Positions 5,301-37,923 are shown, counted from the stretch's first letter. The stretch: 37,923 bases of DNA from SAR116 cluster bacterium MED-G04 (GCA_002457135.1 NTKX01000012.1:1-37923), one strand, 5' to 3'. Numbers and translations: made by a program. Notes: generated by a model not told the origin, from the sequence alone.

Positions 5301-5940
5301 TGCCGCCCTCGTTGACGAGATCATCCTTGATCGACTGGATAAAACAGGCATGCGGCTGGGGGTGTTCATAGGCGGACTTGGAACGCGTCAGCTTGCCGGT
5401 TTCATAGTCAACATAGTGATGCCCCTGGCCAGCGCCATCAATACCGTAGGCCCAATGCAGGCCGGTGTTGAACCACTGCGGTGAATTGGGTGCAGCCATC
5501 TGCATGGCCAGCATGAAACGCATTTCATCAAAATAGGTTCTGGCGTCTTCTTCGCTGGTGAAATAGCCGCCTTTCCAGCCCCAATAGGTCCATGTCCCGG
5601 CGAGGCGGTCATAAACCTGCTTGGCCGAAACCTCACCACCATAACGGTCTTCTTCGGGCAGTTCTTTCAGGGCTGCATTATCAGGCACGGAACGCCAGAG
5701 CCATGACGGAACCGAATTTTCTTCAACTTTCTTGAGCCGTGCAGCAACACCGGCCTTGCGAAAATACTTCTGGGCCAGAATATCGATTGCAACCTGGGAG
5801 AAATGCCCGGGCGCTTCAACATCATTGGCCTGGAATACGATCGTTCCGTCAGGGTTGCGGATTTCACTGATTGCGGAAATCCACTCCATCTGGTCGTAAG
5901 GCGAAGCATTTGGAGCGGTGAAGTGGCGGGTTAGTTTCAT
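2305..5940 (-). CDS. nrdJ: Vitamin B12-dependent (class II) ribonucleoside-diphosphate reductase NrdJ
   Basis: A 1211-residue adenosylcobalamin-dependent ribonucleotide reductase that makes deoxyribonucleotides independently of oxygen. The catalytic set is readable by spacing: C199 (PHACF) and C487 (TACNL) as the redox pair, C476 as the thiyl-radical cysteine and E478 in NPCSE; the 11-residue distance 476-487 matches characterised class II enzymes. PTGTIG and CDTTGIEP further on belong to the barrel core. The last 30 residues form a cysteine-rich tail (C1184, C1187, C1198, C1201, C1204, C1210) typical of the large NrdJ type, probably a zinc-ribbon/thiol-relay tail that re-reduces the active site. 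Two NrdR-like boxes sit upstream. The start ATG has only a weak AAGG upstream. No other reductase is visible here, so if this is the only one the cell needs cobalamin. Confidence 0.97.
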
Positions 5941-6013
5941 GTGTTACTGCCTTGATTTTGTTTGTTGACCCAAAGAAAAAAAGAGGTTCAAAAAGCGCAA
6001 GAACTGAGCTTTT

Positions 6014-6061
6014 TACCAATATGTAGTGTTGATTACCCCTACAGGCTACATGATATTGTTT
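6014..6061 (-). promoter_or_regulatory. Tandem NrdR-box-like operator upstream of nrdJ
   Basis: Read on the minus strand, two 16-bp sites resemble the known NrdR box (acaCwATATaTwGtgt). Box 1, ACACTACATATTGGTA at 6029-6014, matches about 12 of 16 positions. Box 2, AAACAATATCATGTAG at 6061-6046, matches about 11 of 16. Their centres are exactly 32 bp apart, about three helical turns, which is the usual spacing for NrdR pairs. NrdR is the ATP/dATP-sensing repressor of ribonucleotide reductase genes, so this predicts dATP-responsive control of nrdJ. No nrdR gene lies in the window. The rest of the 5941-6294 divergent gap holds no gene I can support and no B12-riboswitch core. Confidence 0.72.
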
Positions 6062-6294
6062 CCCCTTCCAAGAACAATTATGGCAGAATTCGAAAAAAAT
6101 GAGGTCATTCCACGGGGCTTTAAGGCGCTCATCTTTCAAGCGTATTATTTCCCCGGGGAGTTTCAATTTTAGGTGGTTATAGCGCAAGGTTTCGTTAATC
6201 TATTGTCCCCGGGGGCGTTGCCATCACGCCGGTCATGGGGTATGGATTAAGGACAGATAAGGGAAATAAATTCCCGGCATTGAGGATCACGACC

Positions 6295-6657
6295 ATGAGT
6301 TTTGTTTCGCGCCTTTTCATCAGCATGAGGTCTCGCGAAATTGGTGCTGATGCGTTCGGCAACCGATATTATGAGGCCCGCAAGCCGGACCGGCTTGGCC
6401 GGATCAAGCGTTTCGTTGTCTATAACGGCACGGCAGAGGCCAGCAAGGTCCCTGCTGACTGGCATGGCTGGCTTCATCATACCGAGGACACGCCGCCCCC
6501 TGCCGAAGGCTACGCGAGGCGCGGCTGGCAGAAGGAACATCTGCCCAATCTGACCGGCACCATTCACGCTCATCGTCCGGCTGGCCACCTCATGAAAGGC
6601 GGCAGGCGCAGACGCACAACAGGCGATTACGAAGCCTGGAACCCCGAACAGGAATAA
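6295..6657 (+). CDS. NDUFA12-family NADH:ubiquinone oxidoreductase accessory subunit
   Basis: A 120-residue protein of the NDUFA12 (17.2 kDa) family, an accessory subunit of respiratory complex I shared by alphaproteobacteria and mitochondria. Near the N-terminus EIGADAFGNRYYEAR is the characteristic segment, followed by RFVVYNG, EASKVPADWHGWLHHT and a C-terminal YEAWNPE. The frame is open further upstream, but the ATG at 6295 is preceded by GAGG at a usable distance and begins MSFVSRLF, matching the expected family length. It starts a tightly packed plus-strand run with mlaD (4-base gap) and the DUF2155 gene (overlap). Other complex I genes are not nearby, which is normal for this subunit. 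Confidence 0.93.
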   Translation: MSFVSRLFISMRSREIGADAFGNRYYEARKPDRLGRIKRFVVYNGTAEASKVPADWHGWLHHTEDTPPPAEGYARRGWQKEHLPNLTGTIHAHRPAGHLMKGGRRRRTTGDYEAWNPEQE

Positions 6658-11656: not shown

Positions 11657-13015
11657 TCAGCTCCCTGCCTGGGCGATGATGTCAGCGGCCAGCTGTTTCT
11701 GGACCGGGGTGGCATCGGGGTTGGCGGAAACACGTTTGGCCAGTTGTGTTGCCAGTTCAGTGTTGCGTTTCAAGAGGGCTTCCTCAGCCAGGGTCAGGTC
11801 AGCCTCGGCAAAGCGTCCGGCCTTGCCATAACCGATCCCGAGCTGATGTTTGACAAAGGCCCATTCGGGTTCCTCAATGGTGGCCATCTCTAGTGCCTCG
11901 ATGGCAAGCGGCAAGTGTTCAGGATCGCCGGTGGCAAGATAGGCACGGCCCATTGACAGGAGAATCTGGCCGGTATTCACCGGCTGGTCTGCAAATGCCT
12001 CCCCCTCAAAAATCATCAGGGTCTTTTCATACTGGCGGGCGGCGGCCAGCCCCTCCCCGCTGGAACGGAGGGTGTCACCATAGAACTCCCGATAATAGGG
12101 ATCATCGGGAAAGGCGGTGACCAGTTCAGCCATTTCATCACGGGCGGCGACCACATCCGACAGGCGCAGAAAGGCGACAGCTCGCTTGAACCGGGCCTCC
12201 GGGCTTTCATCGCCGATGGTGTTGGCGATGGTGGTTTTGGGCGGAAAGGTCCATGCCTCCAGCTTTTCCTTGATCCGCTGAAACGATGCCTCCATCCAGG
12301 CGGGTTCGGGCAGGGGGTCTTTTTCATGGTTGTTGATGTAGTCCTGAAAAACCGCGCTGCGTTCGAGCGCCCCGGGGTGGGACAGGTAGTAATCGGTCTG
12401 CCTGCTCTGGGGCAGCATCCGCTGTGCCGCCAGTTTGCGCATCGTTTCCGTCATGGGGTGGAGCGAATAGTTCTGGGATTTCATCAGCCGGATTGCCCAT
12501 TCATCGGCGACACCCTCATCCTGCCTTGATCGGGCCATGACAATCCGGGTGGAACGGTCAAACCCGCCTGCCAGCACCCCGAAAGCGGCATCACCGCTGC
12601 CCGCCGCCGATAATGCCACCGCCGCCACCACGCCGAGCAGGCTGGTAATGCCGGCATCCTCAATAACCTCACCCCGGCGTTGAACATGGCCGGAGGCGAT
12701 ATGCCCGATTTCATGGGCCATGACACCGGCAACCTCGATCATGTTTTCCGCCTGCATCAGCAGCCCGCTATGGATAAAGATGATGCTGTCGGCCATCACG
12801 AAGGCATTGTATTGCGAATTGTTGACGATGCGGACACCGATCCTGTCAGGGTTGAGGCCAGCCTGTTGCGCCATCGGCCGCGCCATTTTCAGCAGGGTCT
12901 GTTCGATTTCGGTATCACGGATGATCGCTGCGGATGCTGAAACGGGCAACCCGATGATCACCACCAATGCAAGGAGGCCAAGCCATCCTGGCATTATTTT
13001 TGAAGAGCGATCCAT
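11657..13015 (-). CDS. M48-family metalloprotease with C-terminal TPR-like region (BepA type)
   Basis: A periplasmic M48 zinc protease of about 452 residues. A signal peptide (GWLGLLALVVIIGLPVSASA) is followed by the peptidase domain with the zinc motif HEIGH at about 101-105 and the downstream DEGVADEWA helix bearing the third ligand. The C-terminal half is helical with TPR-like units (for example PVNTGQILLSMGRAYLATGD and FVKHQLGIGYGKAGRFAEAD). This layout matches BepA/YfgC-type proteases that monitor outer-membrane protein assembly; that role is inferred from family. The frame is open to 13075, but 13015 (MDRSSKIMPGW) has GGAA upstream and gives a normal signal peptide. It diverges from the aminotransferase gene. 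Confidence 0.9.
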   Translation of the reverse strand: MDRSSKIMPGWLGLLALVVIIGLPVSASAAIIRDTEIEQTLLKMARPMAQQAGLNPDRIGVRIVNNSQYNAFVMADSIIFIHSGLLMQAENMIEVAGVMAHEIGHIASGHVQRRGEVIEDAGITSLLGVVAAVALSAAGSGDAAFGVLAGGFDRSTRIVMARSRQDEGVADEWAIRLMKSQNYSLHPMTETMRKLAAQRMLPQSRQTDYYLSHPGALERSAVFQDYINNHEKDPLPEPAWMEASFQRIKEKLEAWTFPPKTTIANTIGDESPEARFKRAVAFLRLSDVVAARDEMAELVTAFPDDPYYREFYGDTLRSSGEGLAAARQYEKTLMIFEGEAFADQPVNTGQILLSMGRAYLATGDPEHLPLAIEALEMATIEEPEWAFVKHQLGIGYGKAGRFAEADLTLAEEALLKRNTELATQLAKRVSANPDATPVQKQLAADIIAQAGS

Positions 13016-13100: not shown

Positions 13101-14276
13101 ATGTCCATCAAGATATCAAGTCGTTCTGAATTATCCCCTTTTATGGTTATGGATGTCATGGCCAAGGCCGCTGACCTGGAAGCTAAAAAGGGTGAAAGTG
13201 TCATGCATCTTGAGGTGGGCCAGCCATCAACAGGGGCACCACTGCCAGCGCGTCAGGCGATGATCGCGGCGATGGATCTGCCCTCCAGCCATGGCTATAC
13301 CCTGACGGCCGGGATCGTCCCCCTGCGGCGCGGCATTGCCAATCACTATAAACGTTTCTATGGGCTTGATATTTCTGAAGATAATGTCATGGCCACGGTA
13401 GGCTCATCGCTCGGTTTTGCGACCGCGTTTCTGTGCTGTTTTGATGAAGGTGAAACCATTGCCATGACCAATCCCGGGTATTCAGCCTATCGTAACCTGA
13501 TGGTTGCCATGGGGCTGAAACCCTTGCTGATCGATCTCAGCCCCGAGGATGGATGGCGTTTCAGCCGCAAGCATCTTGATGCGCTCGACGATATGCCCGA
13601 TGGGCTGATCATCGCCAGCCCGTCCAACCCGACCGGGGTGGTGATGACCCGTGATGAGCTTAAGGGCGTGGCGGAATGGTGCGATGAAAATAATGTCAGG
13701 CTGATTTCCGATGAAATTTATCACGGTATTTCCTTTGGCGTTGATACCGCCTCCATCCTGGAATTTTCCCCGAATGCGGTGATCGTCAATTCGTTTTCGA
13801 AATTCTTTTCCATGACCGGGCATCGAGTTGGCTGGATGATCGTGCCTGATGATCTGGTGGACCCGATGGACAGGCTGGGCCAGAATGCCGTGATCTCGGT
13901 GCCGACCCTGTCACAGATCGCCGCCACCGCCGCCATCACCGACCCTGATGCCATCTCCGAACTTGAGGCGCATATTGATCGCTATCGGCGCAATCGTGAT
14001 ATTCTGCTGGCCGGGCTTGATCAGCGTCTGCTCAATAATGTTGAGCCGCCTGAAGGGGCGTTTTATATCTATCTCGATACCACAAGGGTCAGCCCGGACA
14101 GTGTTGATCTGGCGGACCGGTTGCTGAATGAGGCCAAGGTCGCGACAACGCCGGGGGCTGATTTCGACCCCGTCAATGGCCACAAGGCATTGAGGCTATC
14201 GTTCGCGGGCAGTGAGGATGATATGCATGAGGCGGTCCGGCGCGTGAACGCCTGGATGGCTGAACACTGTCACTAG
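13101..14276 (+). CDS. Class I/II pyridoxal-phosphate aminotransferase
   Basis: A 391-residue fold-type I aminotransferase of the aspartate aminotransferase superfamily. SPSNPTG at 173-179, D204 (contacts the PLP ring nitrogen) and Y207 in ISDEIYH, and the Schiff-base lysine K234 in SFSKFFSMTGHRVGW are all present; ALRLSFAG near the C-terminus holds the carboxylate-binding arginine. The long upstream-open frame overlaps the divergent M48 gene, so I chose the ATG at 13101 (MSIKISSRSELSPF), which leaves an 85-base divergent promoter region. The substrate cannot be assigned: such enzymes are usually annotated only generically. Confidence 0.92.
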   Translation: MSIKISSRSELSPFMVMDVMAKAADLEAKKGESVMHLEVGQPSTGAPLPARQAMIAAMDLPSSHGYTLTAGIVPLRRGIANHYKRFYGLDISEDNVMATVGSSLGFATAFLCCFDEGETIAMTNPGYSAYRNLMVAMGLKPLLIDLSPEDGWRFSRKHLDALDDMPDGLIIASPSNPTGVVMTRDELKGVAEWCDENNVRLISDEIYHGISFGVDTASILEFSPNAVIVNSFSKFFSMTGHRVGWMIVPDDLVDPMDRLGQNAVISVPTLSQIAATAAITDPDAISELEAHIDRYRRNRDILLAGLDQRLLNNVEPPEGAFYIYLDTTRVSPDSVDLADRLLNEAKVATTPGADFDPVNGHKALRLSFAGSEDDMHEAVRRVNAWMAEHCH

Positions 14277-14296
14277 ACCGCCTCTGTTGGTCAGGA

Positions 14297-14347
14297 AAAT
14301 TCCTGTATTAGCGAAATTCCCGTATTAGCAGAATTCCGGTATCAGGA
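14297..14347. repeat. Three 17-bp tandem copies at the rne stop codon
   Basis: Units at 14297-14313 (AAATTCCTGTATTAGCG), 14314-14330 (AAATTCCCGTATTAGCA) and 14331-14347 (GAATTCCGGTATCAGGA). The rne stop codon (complement of TCA, 14342-14344) lies in the third unit, and the other two carry TAA at the same place. The 17-bp period puts the three stops in three frames. The array lies in the convergent gap between the aminotransferase gene and rne. Confidence 0.93.
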
Positions 14348-16903
14348 ACTCCACCAGCCTTTTTTGCGGGCTGCCGGGGTGACGCTATCGACATCCACGA
14401 CCTCAACCGGGGCTGAACTCAACGCCTCACGCGAAGGCTTTTCGGCCCCGTCCTTGGTGTCGTCACTGCTATTGTCGGCGGCGGCTGATTTGGCTTTGGC
14501 CTTCTTCGCCTTTTTCGCCGTGGCTTTCTTGGCCTTCGCCTTGGTCTTTACCTCAGCGGTTTTGGTATCCCCGTCTTCAGCGGCTGCCTTTTTCTTCTTG
14601 GCGCGGGTTTTGGCGGCTTTCTTGGCGGCTTTGGGTTCTTCTGCCGGGGTTCCTGCGGGGGTTTCTGCCGGGCTGCTTTCAGCCCCTTCAGCTTCACCAG
14701 CCTCAGCCTTTTTCGGGGCTTTGCGGCGGGACCGTTTCGGCTTTATCACCTCAGCCTGACCGGCATCGCTGTCATCCGATGGGCTGTCGCTGGCATCGGC
14801 CTGAGCTTCACCACCTTGAGCTTCCCCGTTTTGAGCTTCCTCATCACGGTTTTCTGAGGCCTGCATGCCATCGGTATCACTGCCGGTGCCATCACGACGA
14901 CGACGGCGACCCCCGCGCTTGCCACGGCGGCGACGGCGGCGTGGTTTATCCTCTTCACTGCCATCTTCGGATGGGGTGGATGGGGTGGATGGGGTGGTCT
15001 CATCCTCGCTGCTGCTATCCGCCTCTGTGGTTGTCTCGGCCTCGGGTTCGGGCCTGTTGCGGGAACGGCGTTTGCGGGAACGGCTGTTGTCGTTGCGGCT
15101 TTCGCTGTTGTCCGGGATCACCGGCACGTCACCGAACCGAACTTGCGGGGCAACCAGCAGATCGTTGGACGTGATGATGATATGCATGCTGAAACGTTCC
15201 TCAATCTCGGAGAGGATGCTTCGCTTGTTGTTGAGAATATAGAACGCGATGGTGGAATGCATCTGCACCGTCAGGCTGTCGCCCCTGGCTTTCGGTGCCT
15301 CGGTTTCGATGGCACGGAGCGCAAACAGGGCCGCGGCCTCAATCGAATGCACCCGGCCTGAACCTTCGCAATGCGGGCAGATGCGGGTGACGGTTTCGGC
15401 CAGGCTGGAACGCAGACGCTGGCGTGACATTTCCAGCAGCCCGAACTGGCTGATGCTGCCAATCTGGATACGCGCCCGGTCGGATTTGACGGCCTCTTTC
15501 ACCTTGCGTTCAACCGCGTTCTGGTTGCGGTTGCTTTCCATGTCGATGAAATCAATGACGATCAGCCCGGACAAGTCACGCAGGCGGAGCTGATGGGCGA
15601 TTTCTTCTGCCGCCTCCATATTGGTCTTGAGCGCGGTTTCCTCAATATTCCGCTCCCTTGTGGCGCGGCCAGAGTTAACGTCAATGGCGACCAGCGCCTC
15701 GGTCTGGTTAATCACCAGGTAGCCGCCGGATTTAAGCGTCACCTGAGGTTCATGCATTGAGGCCAGCATTTCCTCAACCTGATATTTCTGCAACAGGGTC
15801 TGGCCGCTTTCCTCATGCACCTTGACCTTTTTGACATGGCTGGGCATGAGGTTTTTCATATGCGAGCGGGCCATTTTATAGGCATCGCTGCCTTCAACGA
15901 CAATCTCCTCCACATCAGAGGCATAATAGTCACGGACAGCCCGTTTGATGAGGTTGCCTTCCTCATGGATCAGTGCCGGTGCGATGGATTCCATGGTCAG
16001 GGTGCGGATATCATCCCATTGCCGCATCAGGTAGGTGAAATCACGGGTGATTTCAGCCTTGGTTCTCTTGGAACCCGCAGTGCGGACAATCACCGCCATG
16101 CCATCAGGGATATCGAGGCTGCCGACAATGCTTTTCAGCTTTTTGCGATCAACAGGGTTGCTGATCTTGCGGCTGACCCCGCCGCCATGATGGGTGTTCG
16201 GCATCAGCACGCAGTAACGGCCAGCCAGCGAAAGGTAGGTTGTCAGCGCCGCGCCCTTGTTGCCGCGCTCTTCCTTGACCACCTGGATCAGCATGATCTG
16301 GCGGCGGGCGATGACTTCCTGGATCTTGTAATGACGGGAAAAATTGACGCTGCGGCGGCGCTGGGCCTGAACCTCTTCATCAGCATCATCACCGCCAGAA
16401 CTGTCAGCGGCGGTGTCATCAGACTCCCCGTTGGCTTCCCCGTTTTCATCCCCGTTATCGGGGCCGGTTTCACCATCAGCGGCATCAGCGGCCTCGGCTT
16501 CAGGGGTTTCGTCACCGGTTTCGGCAGCATCCCCGGACACGGTTTCTTCGCCGGATGCCTCAGCCGCCACGGCATCGGGGGCAGGCTCGGATGCAGGCTC
16601 GCTATCATCATCGCCGCGGCCGGATTGTTCGGCCAGCAGCTTTTCCCTGTCTTCAACGGGGATGCGGTAATAGTCGGGATGGATTTCACTGAAGGCGAGG
16701 AAGCCCTGGCGATTGCCGCCGTATTCTACAAATGCCGCCTGCAATGAAGGCTCGACCCTCGTCACGCGGGCGAGGTAGATATTTCCTTTAATGGGTTTGC
16801 GGTGGCTTGTTTCGTAGTCAAAATCCTCAAGTTTATTATTATTAAGCAGAACAACGCGAGTTTCGTCGTCCTGCCTGGCGTCGATAAGCAGTTTCTTTGA
16901 CAT
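14342..16903 (-). CDS. rne: Ribonuclease E/G
   Basis: An 853-residue RNase E, the endonuclease that starts mRNA decay and processes rRNA/tRNA. The S1 domain (from about residue 40) is interrupted at about 95-183 by a long Asp/Glu/Ala/Gly-rich acidic insert typical of alphaproteobacterial RNase E. Catalytic aspartates are D408 (AIDVNSGR) and D451 (VIDFIDM), followed by the zinc-link CPHC at 509-512; these spacings equal those of the E. coli enzyme. The C-terminal third is low complexity: an Arg-rich stretch, a TPS repeat and Lys/Ala blocks, presumably for RNA binding and degradosome partners. The ATG at 16903 (MSKKLLIDA) has GGAAGAAAG upstream and fits the family start better than the frame's more upstream ATG. 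Confidence 0.96.
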   Translation of the reverse strand: MSKKLLIDARQDDETRVVLLNNNKLEDFDYETSHRKPIKGNIYLARVTRVEPSLQAAFVEYGGNRQGFLAFSEIHPDYYRIPVEDREKLLAEQSGRGDDDSEPASEPAPDAVAAEASGEETVSGDAAETGDETPEAEAADAADGETGPDNGDENGEANGESDDTAADSSGGDDADEEVQAQRRRSVNFSRHYKIQEVIARRQIMLIQVVKEERGNKGAALTTYLSLAGRYCVLMPNTHHGGGVSRKISNPVDRKKLKSIVGSLDIPDGMAVIVRTAGSKRTKAEITRDFTYLMRQWDDIRTLTMESIAPALIHEEGNLIKRAVRDYYASDVEEIVVEGSDAYKMARSHMKNLMPSHVKKVKVHEESGQTLLQKYQVEEMLASMHEPQVTLKSGGYLVINQTEALVAIDVNSGRATRERNIEETALKTNMEAAEEIAHQLRLRDLSGLIVIDFIDMESNRNQNAVERKVKEAVKSDRARIQIGSISQFGLLEMSRQRLRSSLAETVTRICPHCEGSGRVHSIEAAALFALRAIETEAPKARGDSLTVQMHSTIAFYILNNKRSILSEIEERFSMHIIITSNDLLVAPQVRFGDVPVIPDNSESRNDNSRSRKRRSRNRPEPEAETTTEADSSSEDETTPSTPSTPSEDGSEEDKPRRRRRRGKRGGRRRRRDGTGSDTDGMQASENRDEEAQNGEAQGGEAQADASDSPSDDSDAGQAEVIKPKRSRRKAPKKAEAGEAEGAESSPAETPAGTPAEEPKAAKKAAKTRAKKKKAAAEDGDTKTAEVKTKAKAKKATAKKAKKAKAKSAAADNSSDDTKDGAEKPSREALSSAPVEVVDVDSVTPAARKKGWWSS
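14971..14997 (-). repeat. 9-bp triplicate repeat in the rne tail
   Basis: Three exact tandem copies of ATGGGGTGG (plus strand) encode repeated Thr-Pro-Ser triplets in the disordered C-terminal region of RNase E. The unit is in frame. Confidence 0.9.
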
Positions 16904-31264: not shown

Positions 31265-32512
31265 ATGACCGCACGCGCAAATCATCCTCAAGGGCTGAAC
31301 TCCCTCGGCTTTGATGCTGCGCCTGAGGATACCCGCGTGGTGGTGGCCATGTCGGGCGGGGTCGACAGCTCGGTAACCGCCGCCCTGCTCAAGGAGGAGG
31401 GTTATGACGTTGTTGGCATTACGCTCCAGCTCTATGACCATGGGGAGGCGATCCGCGCCAAGGGGGCGTGCTGCGCCGGTGCCGATATTCATGATGCGAG
31501 GGTGGTTGCAGGACGGCTCGGCATTCGCCATTTCGTCCTCGATTACGAAAGCCGTTTTCAGCAGCAGGTGATGGATGATTTCGCCGATAGCTACCTGCGT
31601 GGCGAAACCCCGATCCCTTGTGTGCGCTGTAACCAGACGGTGAAATTCACCGATCTGCTGGCAACGGCGCGTGACCTCGGGGCGCAATGCCTCGCCACCG
31701 GCCATTATGTCCGCCGTGATGTGAAGGATGGCCGGGCCACGCTGCTCCGCGGGATTGATGACACCAAGGACCAGTCCTATTTCCTCTTCGCCACGACCCC
31801 GGATCAGCTTGATTACCTGCGCTTTCCGCTCGGCGGCATGGATAAGGATGAAACCCGTGAACACGCCCGCCGGTTCGGGCTTTCCATCGCGGAGAAACCC
31901 GACAGTCAGGATATCTGCTTTGTCCCCAACGGACGTTATGGTGACGTGGTAAGGCGGCTCCGCCCGGGCGCGGTTGAGAAGGGGGAGATCATCTATCATG
32001 ATGGCACTGTCCTCGGCCAGCATGACGGCGTTATCGACTACACAATCGGTCAGCGCAAGGGGCTTGGGATCGGCGGCATCAAGGACCGTGACGAAACCGA
32101 AGGCCCGCTCTATGTCATCGGCATCAACCCTGAAAAACATCAGGTGGTGGTGGGGGAGCGCGCCATGCTGGCCTGCCATTCCATCCTGATCAATGAGGTC
32201 AACTGGCTTGGCGGCGATGCGGCCCCCGATGAGTCTGGCGATGAGTCTGGCGATGCGGCTGATGATGCTCATCTCAATACACCGAAAGAGGGTCGCCGGG
32301 TGCTGGCCCGCCTGCGCAACACCGCGCCTGCCATGCCGGCACGGATCACGGGCTGGCCCGATGCGGCAGGTGGCGTGGCTGAAATTACGCTGGATGAACC
32401 CCAGTTCGGAATTGCCGCCGGTCAGGCCGCCGCGCTCTATGATGCGGATGACCCCGATCTGCTGCTAGGCGGTGGCTGGATTGTCGCCGCCCCGACCGGA
32501 GTAGCCAGCTGA
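31265..32512 (+). CDS. mnmA: tRNA-specific 2-thiouridylase MnmA
   Basis: A 415-residue MnmA that adds sulfur to U34 of tRNA-Lys, -Glu and -Gln. The PP-loop is SGGVDSS at 30-36. The two catalytic cysteines are C122 (PCVRCNQTVKF) and C218 (DSQDICFV), at nearly the E. coli spacing. Between the central and C-terminal domains (about 320-334) is an acidic insert DESGDESGDAADDA produced by a 12-bp repeat. It ends the cysE - desulfurase - ferredoxin - mnmA operon (20-base gap), so the desulfurase could supply its persulfide directly. Confidence 0.96.
   Translation: MTARANHPQGLNSLGFDAAPEDTRVVVAMSGGVDSSVTAALLKEEGYDVVGITLQLYDHGEAIRAKGACCAGADIHDARVVAGRLGIRHFVLDYESRFQQQVMDDFADSYLRGETPIPCVRCNQTVKFTDLLATARDLGAQCLATGHYVRRDVKDGRATLLRGIDDTKDQSYFLFATTPDQLDYLRFPLGGMDKDETREHARRFGLSIAEKPDSQDICFVPNGRYGDVVRRLRPGAVEKGEIIYHDGTVLGQHDGVIDYTIGQRKGLGIGGIKDRDETEGPLYVIGINPEKHQVVVGERAMLACHSILINEVNWLGGDAAPDESGDESGDAADDAHLNTPKEGRRVLARLRNTAPAMPARITGWPDAAGGVAEITLDEPQFGIAAGQAAALYDADDPDLLLGGGWIVAAPTGVAS
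32228..32251 (+). repeat. 12-bp duplication inside mnmA
   Basis: Two exact tandem copies of GATGAGTCTGGC, with a degenerate third (GATGCGGCTGAT), encode an acidic Asp-Glu-Ser-Gly repeat in an inter-domain loop of MnmA. The repeat is in frame. Confidence 0.88.
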
Positions 32513-32812: not shown

Positions 32813-32889
32813 GGCGGAGTAGCTCAGTTGGTTAGAGCAGCGGAATCATAATCCGCGTGTCGGGGGTTCAAGTCCCTCCTCCGCTACCA
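32813..32889 (+). tRNA. tRNA-Met (anticodon CAT), elongator type
   Basis: A 77-base tRNA that folds fully. The acceptor stem GGCGGAG pairs with CTCCGCT (one G-U at 1-72). The D arm is GCTC/GAGC, the anticodon stem GCGGA/TCCGC encloses loop ATCATAA with anticodon CAT at 32847-32849, and the T arm GGGGG/CCCTC encloses TTCAAGT. CCA is encoded. Position 1 pairs with 72, unlike initiator tRNA, so this is elongator Met; a lysidine-modified Ile tRNA is the alternative, but the body matches alphaproteobacterial elongator tRNA-Met as I know it. It marks the edge of the AT-richer copper region. Confidence 0.95.
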
Positions 32890-33033
32890 TTTCTCTTCAC
32901 GATAACCCGAACAATTCCGCTGAACACAGCCCATGTCGGTTATGTAGCCCACTTCCTATACGTGGATCGCCATTGGCTAATAGTCACTCACCAGCATGGC
33001 TTCGGCGCACTGCCGAATTGGTAACAATTTTAA

Positions 33034-33054
33034 GCAAAAAGTGGTTATCCACCC
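33034..33054 (-). terminator. Hairpin plus T-tract at the end of copD
   Basis: On the minus strand GTGG-ATAA-CCAC, extended by two G-U pairs, is followed immediately by TTTTT. It includes the copD stop codon and would end the copper operon before the tRNA. The stem is short, so confidence is modest. Confidence 0.45.
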
Positions 33055-33917
33055 ATTGGAAGATTTAGTGATGTCGTCAATAAACTGGTAAATAAAAATA
33101 CCAAAAGCACCAGCATAATTTCAGCCTGCACAGAATTTTTGAGACGTATTGCGCCCCTCTCCATGTCAGATTTTATCAATGGGACGATCCAAAACTTGTT
33201 GAGTGCGCCCAGAAAAAGCAATGTACATACAATGAGAACCTTCACACAAAGCACAATGCCGTATGAGGTTTCTATCAGTAATGAGATATCACCAATCAAC
33301 ATGTAGGCGAATGATATCCCGGCTATGAGCAAGCCAAGAACATAGAACATCGCTATCTTGCCGAATTGATGGGTAACTTGGTGCAGGTTTTTAATGTTGC
33401 TTGAAAGACACATGTTGCGCAGTGGTAATAATGAACCAATCCAGAATGCGATCCCTGTCAAATGAAAGATCAGCAATATCTGGGCAGTGGTTCCTAGTTT
33501 TGAAGCATGGCCCGAGATCACAAAGGAAAGTAACAAGAGGAATACGCCGAGTAACGTAGAACCGGATTTCAACGACGACGGAAAAATTTTTCCTTGCAGA
33601 TAAAGCACCAAAAAACCAGCCGAACAAAGCATTGCTGCAAGTCCGGACTTGGAGTCAAGGGCAAGCCCTAGCATCAACGGCGAAAACACGCTGCCTAGAT
33701 CGCCACCCATATTTCCGCTGATTGATAAAAAGAACAATGCTGAAATTATTAATCCCAGAAGCGATGCGTTATTTGAAAGTGAAGAGCAATAAGCCTTATT
33801 TTCGATCGTCTGGTATTTGTTGAAATGGAAAGCAAACAAGAGTGAACCGGTTGCAACGAGAACTGAACCATAAAGCAAAAGCTTTATTACAGGGTTAAAA
33901 ACGATCCAAATGTCCAT
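33045..33917 (-). CDS. copD: CopD-family copper resistance membrane protein
   Basis: A 290-residue polytopic inner-membrane protein with about eight hydrophobic helices. It matches the CopD domain, whose members work with CopC in copper resistance or uptake. Recognisable elements are SGHAS at 136-140, FHLTGIAFWIGSLLPL at 151-166 with H152 and W159, LNKFWIVP near 244-251, and the final helix FLFTSLLTTS. It is the last gene of the operon, 100 bases after the multicopper oxidase, and copC lies at the other end of the same run, which supports the assignment. Direction of copper movement cannot be told. The gene is clearly AT-richer than the core genes. Confidence 0.85.
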   Translation of the reverse strand: MDIWIVFNPVIKLLLYGSVLVATGSLLFAFHFNKYQTIENKAYCSSLSNNASLLGLIISALFFLSISGNMGGDLGSVFSPLMLGLALDSKSGLAAMLCSAGFLVLYLQGKIFPSSLKSGSTLLGVFLLLLSFVISGHASKLGTTAQILLIFHLTGIAFWIGSLLPLRNMCLSSNIKNLHQVTHQFGKIAMFYVLGLLIAGISFAYMLIGDISLLIETSYGIVLCVKVLIVCTLLFLGALNKFWIVPLIKSDMERGAIRLKNSVQAEIMLVLLVFLFTSLLTTSLNLPMGG

Positions 33918-34017
33918 GGCTTTACCGTCTGTCCAGGGCTTAACAAAACCAAACCCTCGCCTCTTTGTCTGCTATCCACACCGTCCATAATTAATGACAG
34001 GCTGGGATGAAGTCTTG

Positions 34018-35424
34018 CTATCCCTTCCTATAATTTGGTTTTACAGCCATGAATTGCGATACCTGTGGTGATGTTTTTGGTTCCAAAAGTCCGTCTCCGG
34101 ATGAAAGCTGCTTGGAAATTTCTGGCAGTTCCCCCGTATATTCAAAGGCTTGATGCCCTACAGGATTTTGGTACCATCCGGGGTCGGTATAGACACCATG
34201 TGGAATGTCCTTTCGCACCTTTAACATGCTGAACATACCACCCATCTCAACGGATCCGTAAGGTCCCTCACCCGTCATCATAGGGAGGGTGTTGTCCGGT
34301 AATGGCATGGACATTTCAGTCATGTCAGCCATACCCCTCTCGCCCATAACCATATAGTCAGGCACCAGTCTTTGAATCCTTTCGGTTATTCCCCTGTGAT
34401 CTACACCGATTAAGGTCGGCACGTTGTGCCCCATTGCATTCATTGAGTGATGGCTTTTGTGGCAATGCATTGCCCAATCACCCTCTTCATTAGCGATAAA
34501 CTCGATCTGACGCATTTGCCCAACGGCGATGTCGGTGGTGACCTCCGGCCAGCGACTTTCTGGACGAGTTGGTCCTCCATCTGTCCCTGTTACCTCGAAC
34601 TCTATTCCATGAACATGAATAGGGTGATTGGTCATTGTCAGATTGCCGACACGCACTCTGACACGGTCGTTTTTTCTCGCTACTAACGGTGCTATTCCAG
34701 GAAAAATGCGGCTGTTCCATGCCCAAAGATTAAAATCAAGCATGGTCATGATCTTGGGCGTTGCCGAACCCGGTACTATGTCAAACGCGTTTAAAAGGAT
34801 GCAGTAGTCCCGGTCGACTTCGTTGATCCATGGGTGTTTTGTTTTGGGATGAGTGACCCAAAAACCCATCATGCCCATGGCCATTTGCGTCATCTCATCA
34901 GCGTGCGGGTGGTACATAAATGTACCCGGGCGTTTTGCCTCAAATTCATACACAAAAGTTTTCCCAGGTGATACAGCCGGTTGATTGAGGCCGGCCACCC
35001 CATCCATACCGTTCGGCAACCTTTGGCCATGCCAGTGCATACTGGTGTGTTCCGGCAACCTGTTGGTAAGAAAGATCCGGACTTTATCACCCTCAACGAC
35101 TTCTATTGTTGGGCCAGGGCTCTGTCCGTTATAACCCCACAAGTTGGCTTCCATGCCAGGGCCAAGTTCACGAACAACAGGTTCCGCGACGAGGTGAAAT
35201 TCCTTGACACCGTCTTTCATCCGCCACGGCAATGTCCACCCGTTAAGTGTAACCACCGGGTTGTAATTAGTGGGTCCGTCAGGCTGGACTGGATCTTGGG
35301 TGTCTGGAGAATTTTGTGAGACCAAATCGGGCAAACCAGCCAAAGCTGTTGACGTAACAGACTGCCCAGCTATGATCCCACCGGCCAGTGCTGACATTTT
35401 CATGAAGTCGCGCCTTGTGTTCAT
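34018..35424 (-). CDS. Tat-exported two-domain multicopper oxidase with Met-rich tail
   Basis: A 468-residue multicopper oxidase, probably oxidising Cu(I) to less toxic Cu(II) in the periplasm. A twin-arginine signal (RRDFMKMSALAGG) opens the protein. Copper ligands are complete: HWHG at 130-133, HPH at 172-174, HPIHVHG at 267-273 and HCH at 320-322, with T1 ligands C321, H326 and axial M331. Only about 190 residues separate the first and last motifs, the spacing of two-domain laccases, not three-domain CueO. About 135 residues follow the last motif; 358-400 are Met-rich (YMVMGERGMADMTEMSM), as in copper-tolerance oxidases. GGAG precedes the ATG. It lies between tolC and copD genes. Confidence 0.92.
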   Translation of the reverse strand: MNTRRDFMKMSALAGGIIAGQSVTSTALAGLPDLVSQNSPDTQDPVQPDGPTNYNPVVTLNGWTLPWRMKDGVKEFHLVAEPVVRELGPGMEANLWGYNGQSPGPTIEVVEGDKVRIFLTNRLPEHTSMHWHGQRLPNGMDGVAGLNQPAVSPGKTFVYEFEAKRPGTFMYHPHADEMTQMAMGMMGFWVTHPKTKHPWINEVDRDYCILLNAFDIVPGSATPKIMTMLDFNLWAWNSRIFPGIAPLVARKNDRVRVRVGNLTMTNHPIHVHGIEFEVTGTDGGPTRPESRWPEVTTDIAVGQMRQIEFIANEEGDWAMHCHKSHHSMNAMGHNVPTLIGVDHRGITERIQRLVPDYMVMGERGMADMTEMSMPLPDNTLPMMTGEGPYGSVEMGGMFSMLKVRKDIPHGVYTDPGWYQNPVGHQAFEYTGELPEISKQLSSGDGLLEPKTSPQVSQFMAVKPNYRKG

Positions 35425-35478
35425 TTAATATCTCCTACTTGCACTGTCTTTAGTTATGGATGTCTAGAGTGTATTTGC

Positions 35479-36879
35479 TTAGTGGCCCTTTTTCTTTTTA
35501 ATTTTTGTTGCCGATATGGCGCCGGTTTCAACATTAGCCGGTTTACCAAGGGCAACGTTTTTCAAATTTAATTCAGAGACCAGTAAATTGTGATTGGCCT
35601 CGATGCCATTCGTTTCAGCCAGGGATTTTTCGCGGCCGGCCTCCAACAGTTCAAAAACACCAATAATCATACCATTGTAATTGTATGTGGCTTCTTCGAG
35701 TAGTGTTTCGTGCATTGGTATAATTTGATTTTGATAATGCTGCGCAATATCGAATGAGGTCCGGTATGCATTGTATGCGCTTCGAATATCAGATACCGCG
35801 GACAGCAATACCTGTTTGTAATTCTGCTGTTTGCTTAAAACCTCGGCCTGCATTGCGTCTCTTTGCAGGTTGCCCCAATCGAACAAGGGGATCTGGATTT
35901 CTATTTCGTACCCTTTTTTGTTCGATATGCTGCCATCATCGTTAATCCGGTCATTTCGCAAGCCGATCTCAATGTCCGTATAAGAGCTGACATTTTCGAC
36001 ACCAGTTCTAGCAAGTGCCAATTCGTAGTCGAGGCGCGCCAGGGTTACATCGAACCGGTTCTCAAAGTTTCGTGTAATCTCTTCCATCAATGCTGGAGTT
36101 TCGGGAACATCCGGCAAGGAGTCGGGCAGAGAAAACGTGTCGGCTTCATCATCGTTAAGGCCAATCAAGCGGATCAGCCTTTCCCGTTTTGTAATTTTTG
36201 TTTGTTTTGCCTTCGCAAGGGCGATTGTCGCTTCGGAGTATAGCAACTGTTGCCTTATCCTATCACTTGTCGTCATGTTGCCGGTCTGTTTCATCCGCTT
36301 GGCCATTTCAGCAGATGCGGAGAGCGCAACGAATGTATCTTCGGCTATAGAAAATCTTTGCTCAGCCGCAACGGCATCCAACCACGCAAATCTGACCTCC
36401 ATGATCGAGGAAAAAATCTCTGACTCCAGATTAACGGTAGCGATTTCCACAGCGATCTTTGAGGACTTCTGTCGTGAGGGCAAGGACGCCAGGTCGAGCA
36501 AACCAAATGTTAGAAACCTTCCATACTCGGTTTCGCTACCTTTCACCATTCGCTCAAATGCAAAAGCAGGGTTGGGAATTCGGCCTGTCTGGGCCGCCAG
36601 TGAACCTTCCCTCAAATTGTTGAAGAGAAGTTTCTGGAAGGCTGGACTCTTGGTTAGCATTAACTCAACAGCTTCAGCCTCACCTATTTGATTTTCAAGG
36701 AGTGTTTTGGCTCGTTCCTTTAACGCATTTTGCTCATCTATATCCTTGGCAGCGATGACTTCACCAGCAAAAACCACCTCAGAATTTTCATTCACGGCGC
36801 TTATGTTCTGCTCGAAATCATAGCTGCTGCAGCCGGTGGTTATTAATACTAAAGCAATGCTCAGGTAACTGTTCTTCAT
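35479..36879 (-). CDS. TolC-family outer-membrane efflux lipoprotein
   Basis: A 466-residue outer-membrane factor of the TolC/CusC/NodT type, the exit duct of tripartite efflux pumps. The N-terminus MKNSYLSIALVLITTGC is a lipoprotein signal with C17 as the acylated residue. Two long helical repeats typical of OEP domains follow (for example ARLDYELALARTGVE and the tail helix around LLEAGREKSLAETNGIEANHN). The frame is open to 37065, but the ATG at 36879 has GAGG upstream, lies one base after the preceding gene's stop and gives the lipobox. No RND or membrane-fusion partner is in the window; it may lie upstream beyond the right edge, or the duct may use a pump encoded elsewhere. Confidence 0.92.
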   Translation of the reverse strand: MKNSYLSIALVLITTGCSSYDFEQNISAVNENSEVVFAGEVIAAKDIDEQNALKERAKTLLENQIGEAEAVELMLTKSPAFQKLLFNNLREGSLAAQTGRIPNPAFAFERMVKGSETEYGRFLTFGLLDLASLPSRQKSSKIAVEIATVNLESEIFSSIMEVRFAWLDAVAAEQRFSIAEDTFVALSASAEMAKRMKQTGNMTTSDRIRQQLLYSEATIALAKAKQTKITKRERLIRLIGLNDDEADTFSLPDSLPDVPETPALMEEITRNFENRFDVTLARLDYELALARTGVENVSSYTDIEIGLRNDRINDDGSISNKKGYEIEIQIPLFDWGNLQRDAMQAEVLSKQQNYKQVLLSAVSDIRSAYNAYRTSFDIAQHYQNQIIPMHETLLEEATYNYNGMIIGVFELLEAGREKSLAETNGIEANHNLLVSELNLKNVALGKPANVETGAISATKIKKKKGH

Positions 36880-36880
36880 A

Positions 36881-37171
36881 TCAGTTTTCCTCGACACCTT
36901 TTTCGGGTTCGCGAGCGTAATATCGCCAACCGCCAATCTCACCAACATCTTCATTGGCCTCGCGCCAATCCTCCGTATCCAGCCACTCCCATTGTGCGTA
37001 ACTTTCGAACACCGACTTGTATTCATGGGTAGATGGAGGCAATTCGTTCGCGTCTGCCTTTCCACTGAAAATTACCGCGGTTAGGACAATAAAACCTGCA
37101 GCAACGCCGCATAGCGTTTCCTGAATAGACTTGGTCAACGTAAAATGGTTGTGAAATAAAGTCATTTTCAT
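36881..37171 (-). CDS. Small single-pass protein of the copper operon, function unknown
   Basis: A 96-residue protein I cannot assign to a named family. One hydrophobic segment (about 20-36) acts as membrane anchor or signal, followed by a periplasmic part of about 55 residues. The C-terminal core WREANEDVGEIGGWRYYARE (69-88), rich in Trp, Tyr and acidic residues, looks like a conserved motif; I have an impression of similar small proteins beside heavy-metal TolC genes but cannot verify it. It has no Cys, two Met (both at the N-terminus) and His at 7, 9 and 49, so it is not an obvious copper binder. Its stop is one base from the tolC start (TGATATG), indicating translational coupling and a role tied to the efflux duct. 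Confidence 0.75.
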   Translation of the reverse strand: MKMTLFHNHFTLTKSIQETLCGVAAGFIVLTAVIFSGKADANELPPSTHEYKSVFESYAQWEWLDTEDWREANEDVGEIGGWRYYAREPEKGVEEN

Positions 37172-37206
37172 GCATCTGCAAATTGGAACTGTAAGGTCGG
37201 ATTATC

Positions 37207-37830
37207 TTACTGACTTGTTAAATCGATAATTTCCAAGTCCTTGTTCAATGTGAAAAGGACATTGTCTCCTTTTTTAAGGCTCGCAAGAGTTTGTTTGTCA
37301 GGGACCGAATATTCCATCGTCATGGCTGGCATCAAGTCACCTATTGCACCGTGTTTGATCGTCACCTTGGAACCCCTGATCCGCTTGATTTGCCCTTCCC
37401 CTTTCAGGGATGCACTCTCAGCGCTGACAAAATCGATCCCTTCAGGTGAAACTTCAAACGAAAATTCACCCTTGATCGTATGCCCGTCTTCACTTAAAGC
37501 GCGCCAGTTTGTTTGGTATGTACCTTCGTCGAGAGGTGGCAGAGCGATGAGATGCCGTTTATTTTCTTTCATCAGATAGTCGCCACTAAGCGCAACAGTC
37601 TCACCTTCATCGGTCAAAAGGCTCCCGATGAATGATTTTTTCTCATTGGAAGCAAATTTCTGCAGTGTAAGTTTTATAAGTTTTGATGGACCTGTGAACA
37701 CTATTTCCATCTCATCGGGAGCCTTCTTTATTACCGATCCGTCCTGCGGCAAAACGTATGCAACGGGTGAATGACCAAAGGCTGTTACCGGAATGACGAT
37801 AAATATTAGAAACAAAATACGAGAAATCAT
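37207..37830 (-). CDS. copC: CopC-CusF fusion periplasmic copper-binding protein
   Basis: A 207-residue exported protein with two copper-binding domains. The signal peptide probably ends at AFG, leaving H20 as the mature N-terminus, the first ligand of the CopC Cu(II) site. The CopC domain runs to about 128, with D115 and H117 in SEDGHTIKGEFSFEV as further ligands. After a short linker, residues about 145-205 form a CusF-like domain with H160 and M167, M170 and M172 in IKHGAIGDLMPAMTMEY, the Cu(I)/Ag(I) ligands; the CusF tryptophan is replaced by Met. It is the first visible gene of the copper run. One protein could thus bind both Cu(II) and Cu(I). Confidence 0.9.
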   Translation of the reverse strand: MISRILFLIFIVIPVTAFGHSPVAYVLPQDGSVIKKAPDEMEIVFTGPSKLIKLTLQKFASNEKKSFIGSLLTDEGETVALSGDYLMKENKRHLIALPPLDEGTYQTNWRALSEDGHTIKGEFSFEVSPEGIDFVSAESASLKGEGQIKRIRGSKVTIKHGAIGDLMPAMTMEYSVPDKQTLASLKKGDNVLFTLNKDLEIIDLTSQ

Positions 37831-37854
37831 TTTGAGAGGCCCTAAAAAAAGATT

Positions 37855-37886
37855 AATCCTAAAACTCTAATACTAAAAATACTAAA
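37855..37886. promoter_or_regulatory. Repeated AATnCTAAA motif upstream of copC
   Basis: AATACTAAA occurs twice in direct tandem (37869-37877 and 37878-37886), with AATCCTAAA at 37855-37863, all just upstream of the copC start in a very AT-rich stretch. It could be an operator or simply AT-rich promoter DNA. No MerR/CueR-type palindrome is seen in the 93 bases available. Confidence 0.3.
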
Positions 37887-37923
37887 TTTTCAGCTTGCAT
37901 ATCGCGTGTCATGTTGCCGCATA

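Follow-up and report, generated by a model that had tools for sequence, protein, structure and literature searches.

A copper block of 'oxidase plus TolC' type beside tRNA-Met in a SAR116 genome, probably brought in by a tRNA-targeted island

The metagenome-assembled genome (MAG) of SAR116 cluster bacterium MED-G04 (GCA_002457135.1) carries, at the end of one contig, five contiguous genes, all on the minus strand (33,045-37,830), that encode a CopC-CusF fusion, a small exported protein, a TolC-family lipoprotein, a two-domain multicopper oxidase and a CopD-family protein. We read this block as an 'oxidase plus TolC' copper-detoxification operon that was brought into the genome by an island targeted to tRNA-Met, and put the probability of that reading at about 0.7. 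The block probably detoxifies copper by oxidation followed by exit through the outer-membrane channel, with no dedicated pump. TolC-family channels are parts of energised tripartite pumps; a TolC subfamily tied to an oxidase and to a small uncatalogued protein makes it directly testable whether a TolC can function without a pump of its own. The copies bracketed by tRNA sequences show a route by which streamlined marine bacteria can gain metal resistance. What is new is the small protein family beside TolC, the SAR116 gene composition and the carriage on tRNA islets. The DNA analysed, called the window here, is the whole of contig C4 (NTKX01000012.1; 37,923 nucleotides) of a 1.56-Mb MAG with a completeness of 77%. 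The contig terminates at position 37,923, and its final 31 bases occur once in the MAG, at this same contig end; reading rightward of that point was replaced by orthologous loci in other genomes.

A first interpretation, made from the sequence alone, had described these five genes behind an intact tRNA-Met and a drop in composition after it. Open reading frames (ORFs), Pfam and ARAGORN bear out the genes and the tRNA (Table 1), and the composition of the block, which begins 156 bp past the tRNA, is foreign to the window: its GC content is 0.461, against a mean of 0.574 (SD 0.008, minimum 0.559) in 282 windows of equal length drawn from positions 1-32889, and GC at third codon positions is 0.37-0.52 in the block genes versus 0.68 in mnmA. 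Both CopC and CopD pass the Pfam cut-offs and miss the NCBIfam equivalog cut-offs (for CopD, 97 bits against 195). In the CopC-CusF fusion, a signal peptide is followed by His1 (GHSPVAY); within the CopC part, His1 and EDGH are present and a Met-rich loop is absent, and the CusF part has HG...MPAMTM. Homologues were gathered for the oxidase (n=84), for TolC (n=79) and for CopC-CusF (the nine SAR116 copies, all of which keep the ligand motifs of both domains); alignments of the small protein held 44-46 sequences, and the one used for structure prediction omitted two plasmid-derived rows.

The distribution of the block is that of a mobile unit. The sequence-only reading had allowed that the same genes, at the same place and with matching composition in most relatives, would speak against recent transfer; a full-length oxidase match was found in none of 11 genomes of the same family, and in eight genomes from two other families. 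About ten SAR116 (Puniceispirillales) loci have the five genes in identical order, amid several types of flank (L003-L011, G014, G023, G026, G041, G043, G046 and G050; cut in G056), and their oxidases form one clade in the tree, with support of 100/98. Between a genome of family f3 and one of family f4 the 5.2-kb block is 91.6% identical at the DNA level, despite MnmA proteins that are only 54-57% identical and flanks that are unlike; the block has therefore crossed families as a unit. The window copy is more distant from its nearest known counterparts (oxidase 80-85%, TolC 57-60%, CopD 48-50% identity), and its arrival is therefore old or its donor unsampled. Transfer into this MAG is thus not demonstrably recent: of the transfer first proposed, the linkage to a tRNA has held up, with the absence from same-family relatives, the foreign composition and the tRNA islands of relatives in its favour, and recency has not. 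Beyond SAR116, the core of small protein, TolC and oxidase is widespread across Pseudomonadota, on plasmids and chromosomes. Viral carriage was considered and set aside: it appeared in a single IMG/VR contig, and the small protein encoded there is identical to one from Polynucleobacter. The locus nearest to the window, L003 (AG-900-B21), is filed as Litoricola, a gammaproteobacterium, and its block groups with SAR116; it is either misnamed or a case of transfer.

The manner of movement is suggested by islands in relatives. In MAG TMED93 (L004) the block, with one extra gene (DUF4149), is enclosed by a tRNA-fMet on one side and, 6.1 kb away, by an exact 56-bp repeat of the 3' part of that tRNA; a third, degenerate copy lies at about 9.46 kb. 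In isolate AG-359-I23 (L010) the block lies between the 3' half of a tRNA-Thr and two exact 46-bp copies, 12.8 and 13.7 kb away; that island also holds ArsR-like and ArsP-like genes. In L158 the block is bracketed by tRNA-Thr and a degenerate copy (42/45 matching); its near-twin L157 shares 13.4 kb with it at 99.8% identity, up to a junction 14 bases within the tRNA-Thr end, beyond which L157 has a tyrosine integrase. Besides these tRNA-Thr copies, direct repeats (L158:6171-6609 and 12462-12901; one of 222 bp at 95% and others that are shorter) surround the block in G041 and G043. The mnmA/tRNA-Met site itself is occupied in other genomes: G001 (L140, L159) has an integrase at the first tRNA-Met and, 11.5 kb farther along, a second tRNA-Met, while in G016 (L144, L162) the island measures 20 kb and comes with an integrase and a 45-bp copy of the 3' half of the tRNA; GC falls past tRNA-Met in G001, G010, G016 and G027. 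To judge from these loci, the site is an island hotspot in SAR116. The island in G001 carries type I restriction-like genes. The first interpretation had suggested a comparison of relatives for an empty site; no intact empty mnmA/tRNA-Met site was demonstrable in close relatives, whose flanks differ or are cut. Because bracketing repeats and hotspot islands occur in relatives, tRNA-linked transfer of the window block is well supported by analogy, and homology argues strongly that the block would belong to a tRNA island whose own far end lies outside the contig. Such islets resemble other tRNA-integrated islands, including the marine tycheposons (PMC10872708), in insertion at a tRNA 3' end, direct repeats of the 3' half, foreign composition and variable cargo; they differ in that the bracketed copper islets lack an integrase, have a SAR116 host and carry copper genes.

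A second line of evidence comes from a known operon. In Sinorhizobium meliloti CCNWSX0020 copper induces omp 646-fold and cueO 243-fold, and an omp mutant is hypersensitive to copper (PMC4932525); the multicopper oxidase operon is given as omp-cueO-azurin-chaperone (PMC6266702). The annotation of pSymA has the order small protein, TolC, copper oxidase, azurin, copper-binding protein, and its oxidase is 64% identical to that of the window. The two systems share the small protein, TolC and two-domain oxidase in this order, a CusF-type protein and a run of genes without a pump. They differ behind the oxidase, where S. meliloti has an azurin-like cupredoxin and a free CusF and SAR116 has CopD; in front, where SAR116 has the CopC-CusF fusion (and no azurin anywhere in the block); and in the small protein, which in SAR116 has a GGWxxY tail and no lipobox. 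Since the core matches this copper-induced omp-cueO operon, the gene set is a variation on a known, if little-studied, kind, and the epithet 'unusual' first applied to it is not supported. Mutants of tolC and copA in Bradyrhizobium (PMC5057107) were set aside as direct support: that tolC is not shown to adjoin an oxidase, and it affects Zn and Cd as well.

The proposed copper route is modelled on the one suggested for the S. meliloti operon. The CusF domain would capture periplasmic Cu(I) and pass it to the oxidase, exported by the twin-arginine (Tat) pathway; the oxidase, with O2, would convert Cu(I) to the less toxic Cu(II); the CopC domain would bind or buffer Cu(II); CopD may let limited copper inward or serve metalation; the TolC lipoprotein, to which the small protein would be bound as an accessory, would be the outer-membrane exit. 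As the block encodes no dedicated pump, the energy for exit is to be sought in a shared inner-membrane transporter, or in the oxidation and binding steps.

Sequence features of the oxidase agree with its place in this scheme. It has a twin-arginine signal (NTRRDFMKM) at the N-terminus and a Met-rich C-terminal extension; Pfam detects Cu-oxidase_3 and Cu-oxidase_2 and no middle Cu-oxidase domain, which marks it as a two-domain enzyme whose type-1 site lies in the C-terminal domain. The T1/T2/T3 ligands (H130/H132, H172/H174, H267/H270/H272, H320-C321-H322, H325/H326 and M331) are conserved in 82-84 of the 84 homologues, as are ten methionines at residues 358-397; ligands and methionines would fit the expectation for a Cu(I) oxidase. 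A second, distinct multicopper oxidase (461-465 aa) lies 4-5.6 kb upstream of the oxidase in L007, L151, L153 and L155. The grouping of oxidase, CopC, CopD and an outer-membrane protein recalls the Pco/Cop systems (CopABCD). These differ in several respects: the SAR116 oxidase has two domains and falls far below the cut-off of the CopA/PcoA model TIGR01480 (145.8 bits against 478.95), CusF is fused to CopC, and the outer-membrane protein is of the OEP/TolC kind, not a CopB/PcoB beta-barrel (PF05275).

That a duct appears with an oxidase and without a visible pump was remarked from the outset, and the survey extends the point well past the window. Neither cusA/cusB nor a P-type ATPase was found beside the block in the window. 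Among 79 loci with sufficient flank, where an RND match was counted if it lay within 3.5 kb of the oxidase, TolC is present in 79/79 and such a match in 0/79; in 23/79 an RND match lies farther off, within the stretch examined. Pumplessness is a conserved property, and no artefact of the window edge. The CusF domain and the TolC-type lipoprotein are shared with the Cus system (CusCFBA), and the sequence stops at 37,923, so one might suppose a truncated Cus system with cusBA just past the contig end. That is highly improbable: there is no RND-sized ORF in the 5-10 kb on either side of the orthologous SAR116 loci, and the CusA RND and CusB adaptor that mark Cus are beside the block neither in the window nor in relatives. 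An HME-type RND (TIGR00914) is below cut-off in all nine module-bearing genomes, this 77%-complete MAG among them. A match to a Cu-ATPase is likewise absent from the nine, three of which are at least 95% complete. The Cu-ATPase family model TIGR01511 matches nothing in 54 of 61 genomes from the order Puniceispirillales, several of which are 99-100% complete; lack of the ATPase is thus a trait of the order rather than of the carriers, and was rejected as a marker of the latter.

The raw ORF of the TolC protein reaches 37065; the lipoprotein start (MKNSYLSIALVLITTGC) sits at 36879, with one base between it and the stop of the small ORF, and a lipobox is present in 76 of the 79 homologues. The AlphaFold model (pLDDT 83, pTM 0.80) shows a complete outer-membrane-factor fold with long helices and matches the structures of TolC, OprM, CusC and SilC at 14-18% identity. 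This fold would also serve an outer-membrane factor of the ordinary sort, docked to a tripartite pump that is non-dedicated and encoded elsewhere (the HAE-type RND of contig C15, for instance), the block then being an add-on to that pump. Such an arrangement is possible, at somewhat less than even odds: the MAG has one full-length RND permease and every module-bearing genome tested carries non-HME RNDs, but none has a CusA-like RND above cut-off, no RND match lies near the oxidase in any locus surveyed, and we know of no HAE pump that is a copper pump.

The small protein belongs, on alignment and gene context, to an uncatalogued family always adjoining this TolC. Searches of Pfam, NCBIfam and PDB gave chance-level matches only. 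The window protein reads YxSxFxxY...WxxAN..V..IGGWxxY, the homologues YxSxFxxY...WxxxN..V..xGGWxxY, with W69, N73, G80, G81, W82 and Y85 invariant. A profile search of 398 Pseudomonadota genomes, in which the oxidase was not used as a query, yielded nine further members; directly behind all nine stand the same kind of TolC and the same oxidase. The gene in this position on plasmids of rhizobia and roseobacters encodes a small lipoprotein with a YxS..Y..W..N core, which matches the family weakly (best E 9e-7, in a seven-sequence search). The AlphaFold model has a helix and an extended segment, with pLDDT about 85 at residues 51-80 and a low overall pTM of 0.25; it would be in keeping with a peptide that becomes folded on binding a partner, and TolC is the candidate. 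PDB lists solved structures of TolC complexed with YbjP, a small lipoprotein, which are a precedent for such pairing. A different role would be that of a CutF-like nascent-chain copper sensor governing translation of TolC and oxidase, rather than a structural partner. The ORF is small, exported, directly upstream of an OEP gene and translationally close to it, a common CutF-like context (PMC9973294); yet neither CxxxC (or His) nor a C-terminal proline motif is found in the window ORF or the alignment, the invariant residues are aromatic, Asn and glycine, and the rhizobial gene at the same place encodes a lipoprotein, all of which makes a sensor distinctly unlikely. With metal motif and proline motif both missing, identity with CutF, CusD or SilD was rejected. 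Two unrelated loci have small proteins with an HGGASTG motif close to the copper block (L010:17069-17410, without a Pfam match, and L013:3695-4054).

Promoters of CueR-like type precede other SAR116 copies. Loci L005-L011 have a TTGAC(C/T)-19 bp-TAnnnn promoter with a dyad, starting 95-106 bp before CopC-CusF, and in L004 the spacing is the same and the dyad is perfect; promoters with a 19-bp spacer and a dyad are the type used by CueR/MerR proteins. MerR genes adjoin the block in L005, L006 and L157, as do DUF4396 and cytochrome c genes. The corresponding position in the window falls past the contig end.

Several points weigh against the detoxification operon and its island. A second tRNA-Met 3' end was not found in the 77%-complete MAG, the window stopping at the contig end with the right end of the island outside the assembly; no integrase was found in the block, nor within the bracketed copies L004 and L010; and in some relatives the block stands without a tRNA in the stretch examined. 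On the functional side, the equation of SM0020_18792, the S. meliloti omp, with the pSymA TolC is drawn from gene order alone; and a case has been made that the outer-membrane protein PcoB, which partners another oxidase, imports copper, energy-free export being implausible (PMC9210255). That objection applies to the present TolC as well, and a shared pump or a role in import are therefore candidate readings. In the latter, the outer-membrane protein would admit copper in a controlled way, as PcoB would, and the block would serve acquisition or metalation as much as defense; relatives of CopCD do function in copper uptake (PMC10304878). Import is nevertheless unlikely, given the CueR-like promoters before the SAR116 copies and, in S. 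meliloti, the copper-hypersensitive omp mutant and the strong induction of the operon by copper. A bolder version of the detoxification reading is doubtful: a TolC trimer, with the GGWxxY protein as its gate, might receive Cu(II) straight from the oxidase, oxidation rather than proton motive force might drive release, and the module might spread within SAR116 by integrase-less tRNA islets mobilised in trans.

Table 1. Positions of the copper block and its left-hand neighbours in the window
Feature	Position	Strand	Basis or remark
mnmA	31265-32512		precedes tRNA-Met
tRNA-Met (CAT), intact	32813..32889	+	ARAGORN; presumed attachment side of island
CopD-family inner-membrane protein, 290 aa	33045..33917	-	Pfam PF05425, E 1.9e-18
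Two-domain multicopper oxidase, 468 aa	34018..35424	-	Pfam Cu-oxidase_3 + Cu-oxidase_2
TolC-family outer-membrane lipoprotein, 466 aa, lipobox TTGC	35479..36879	-	Pfam OEP, E 1.4e-19
Small exported protein, 96 aa	36881..37171	-	alignment of 44-46 homologues
CopC-CusF fusion, 207 aa	37207..37830	-	Pfam CopC E 1.4e-13, CusF_Ec E 2.7e-15
Upstream region, truncated by contig end	37831..37923	-	

Two other segments of the window stand out in composition. At positions 14001-15500 the AT skew is strong (-0.32 to -0.36) although GC is normal, unlike in the remaining window; at 5501-6500 GC falls locally to 0.504, in surroundings of 0.55-0.60.

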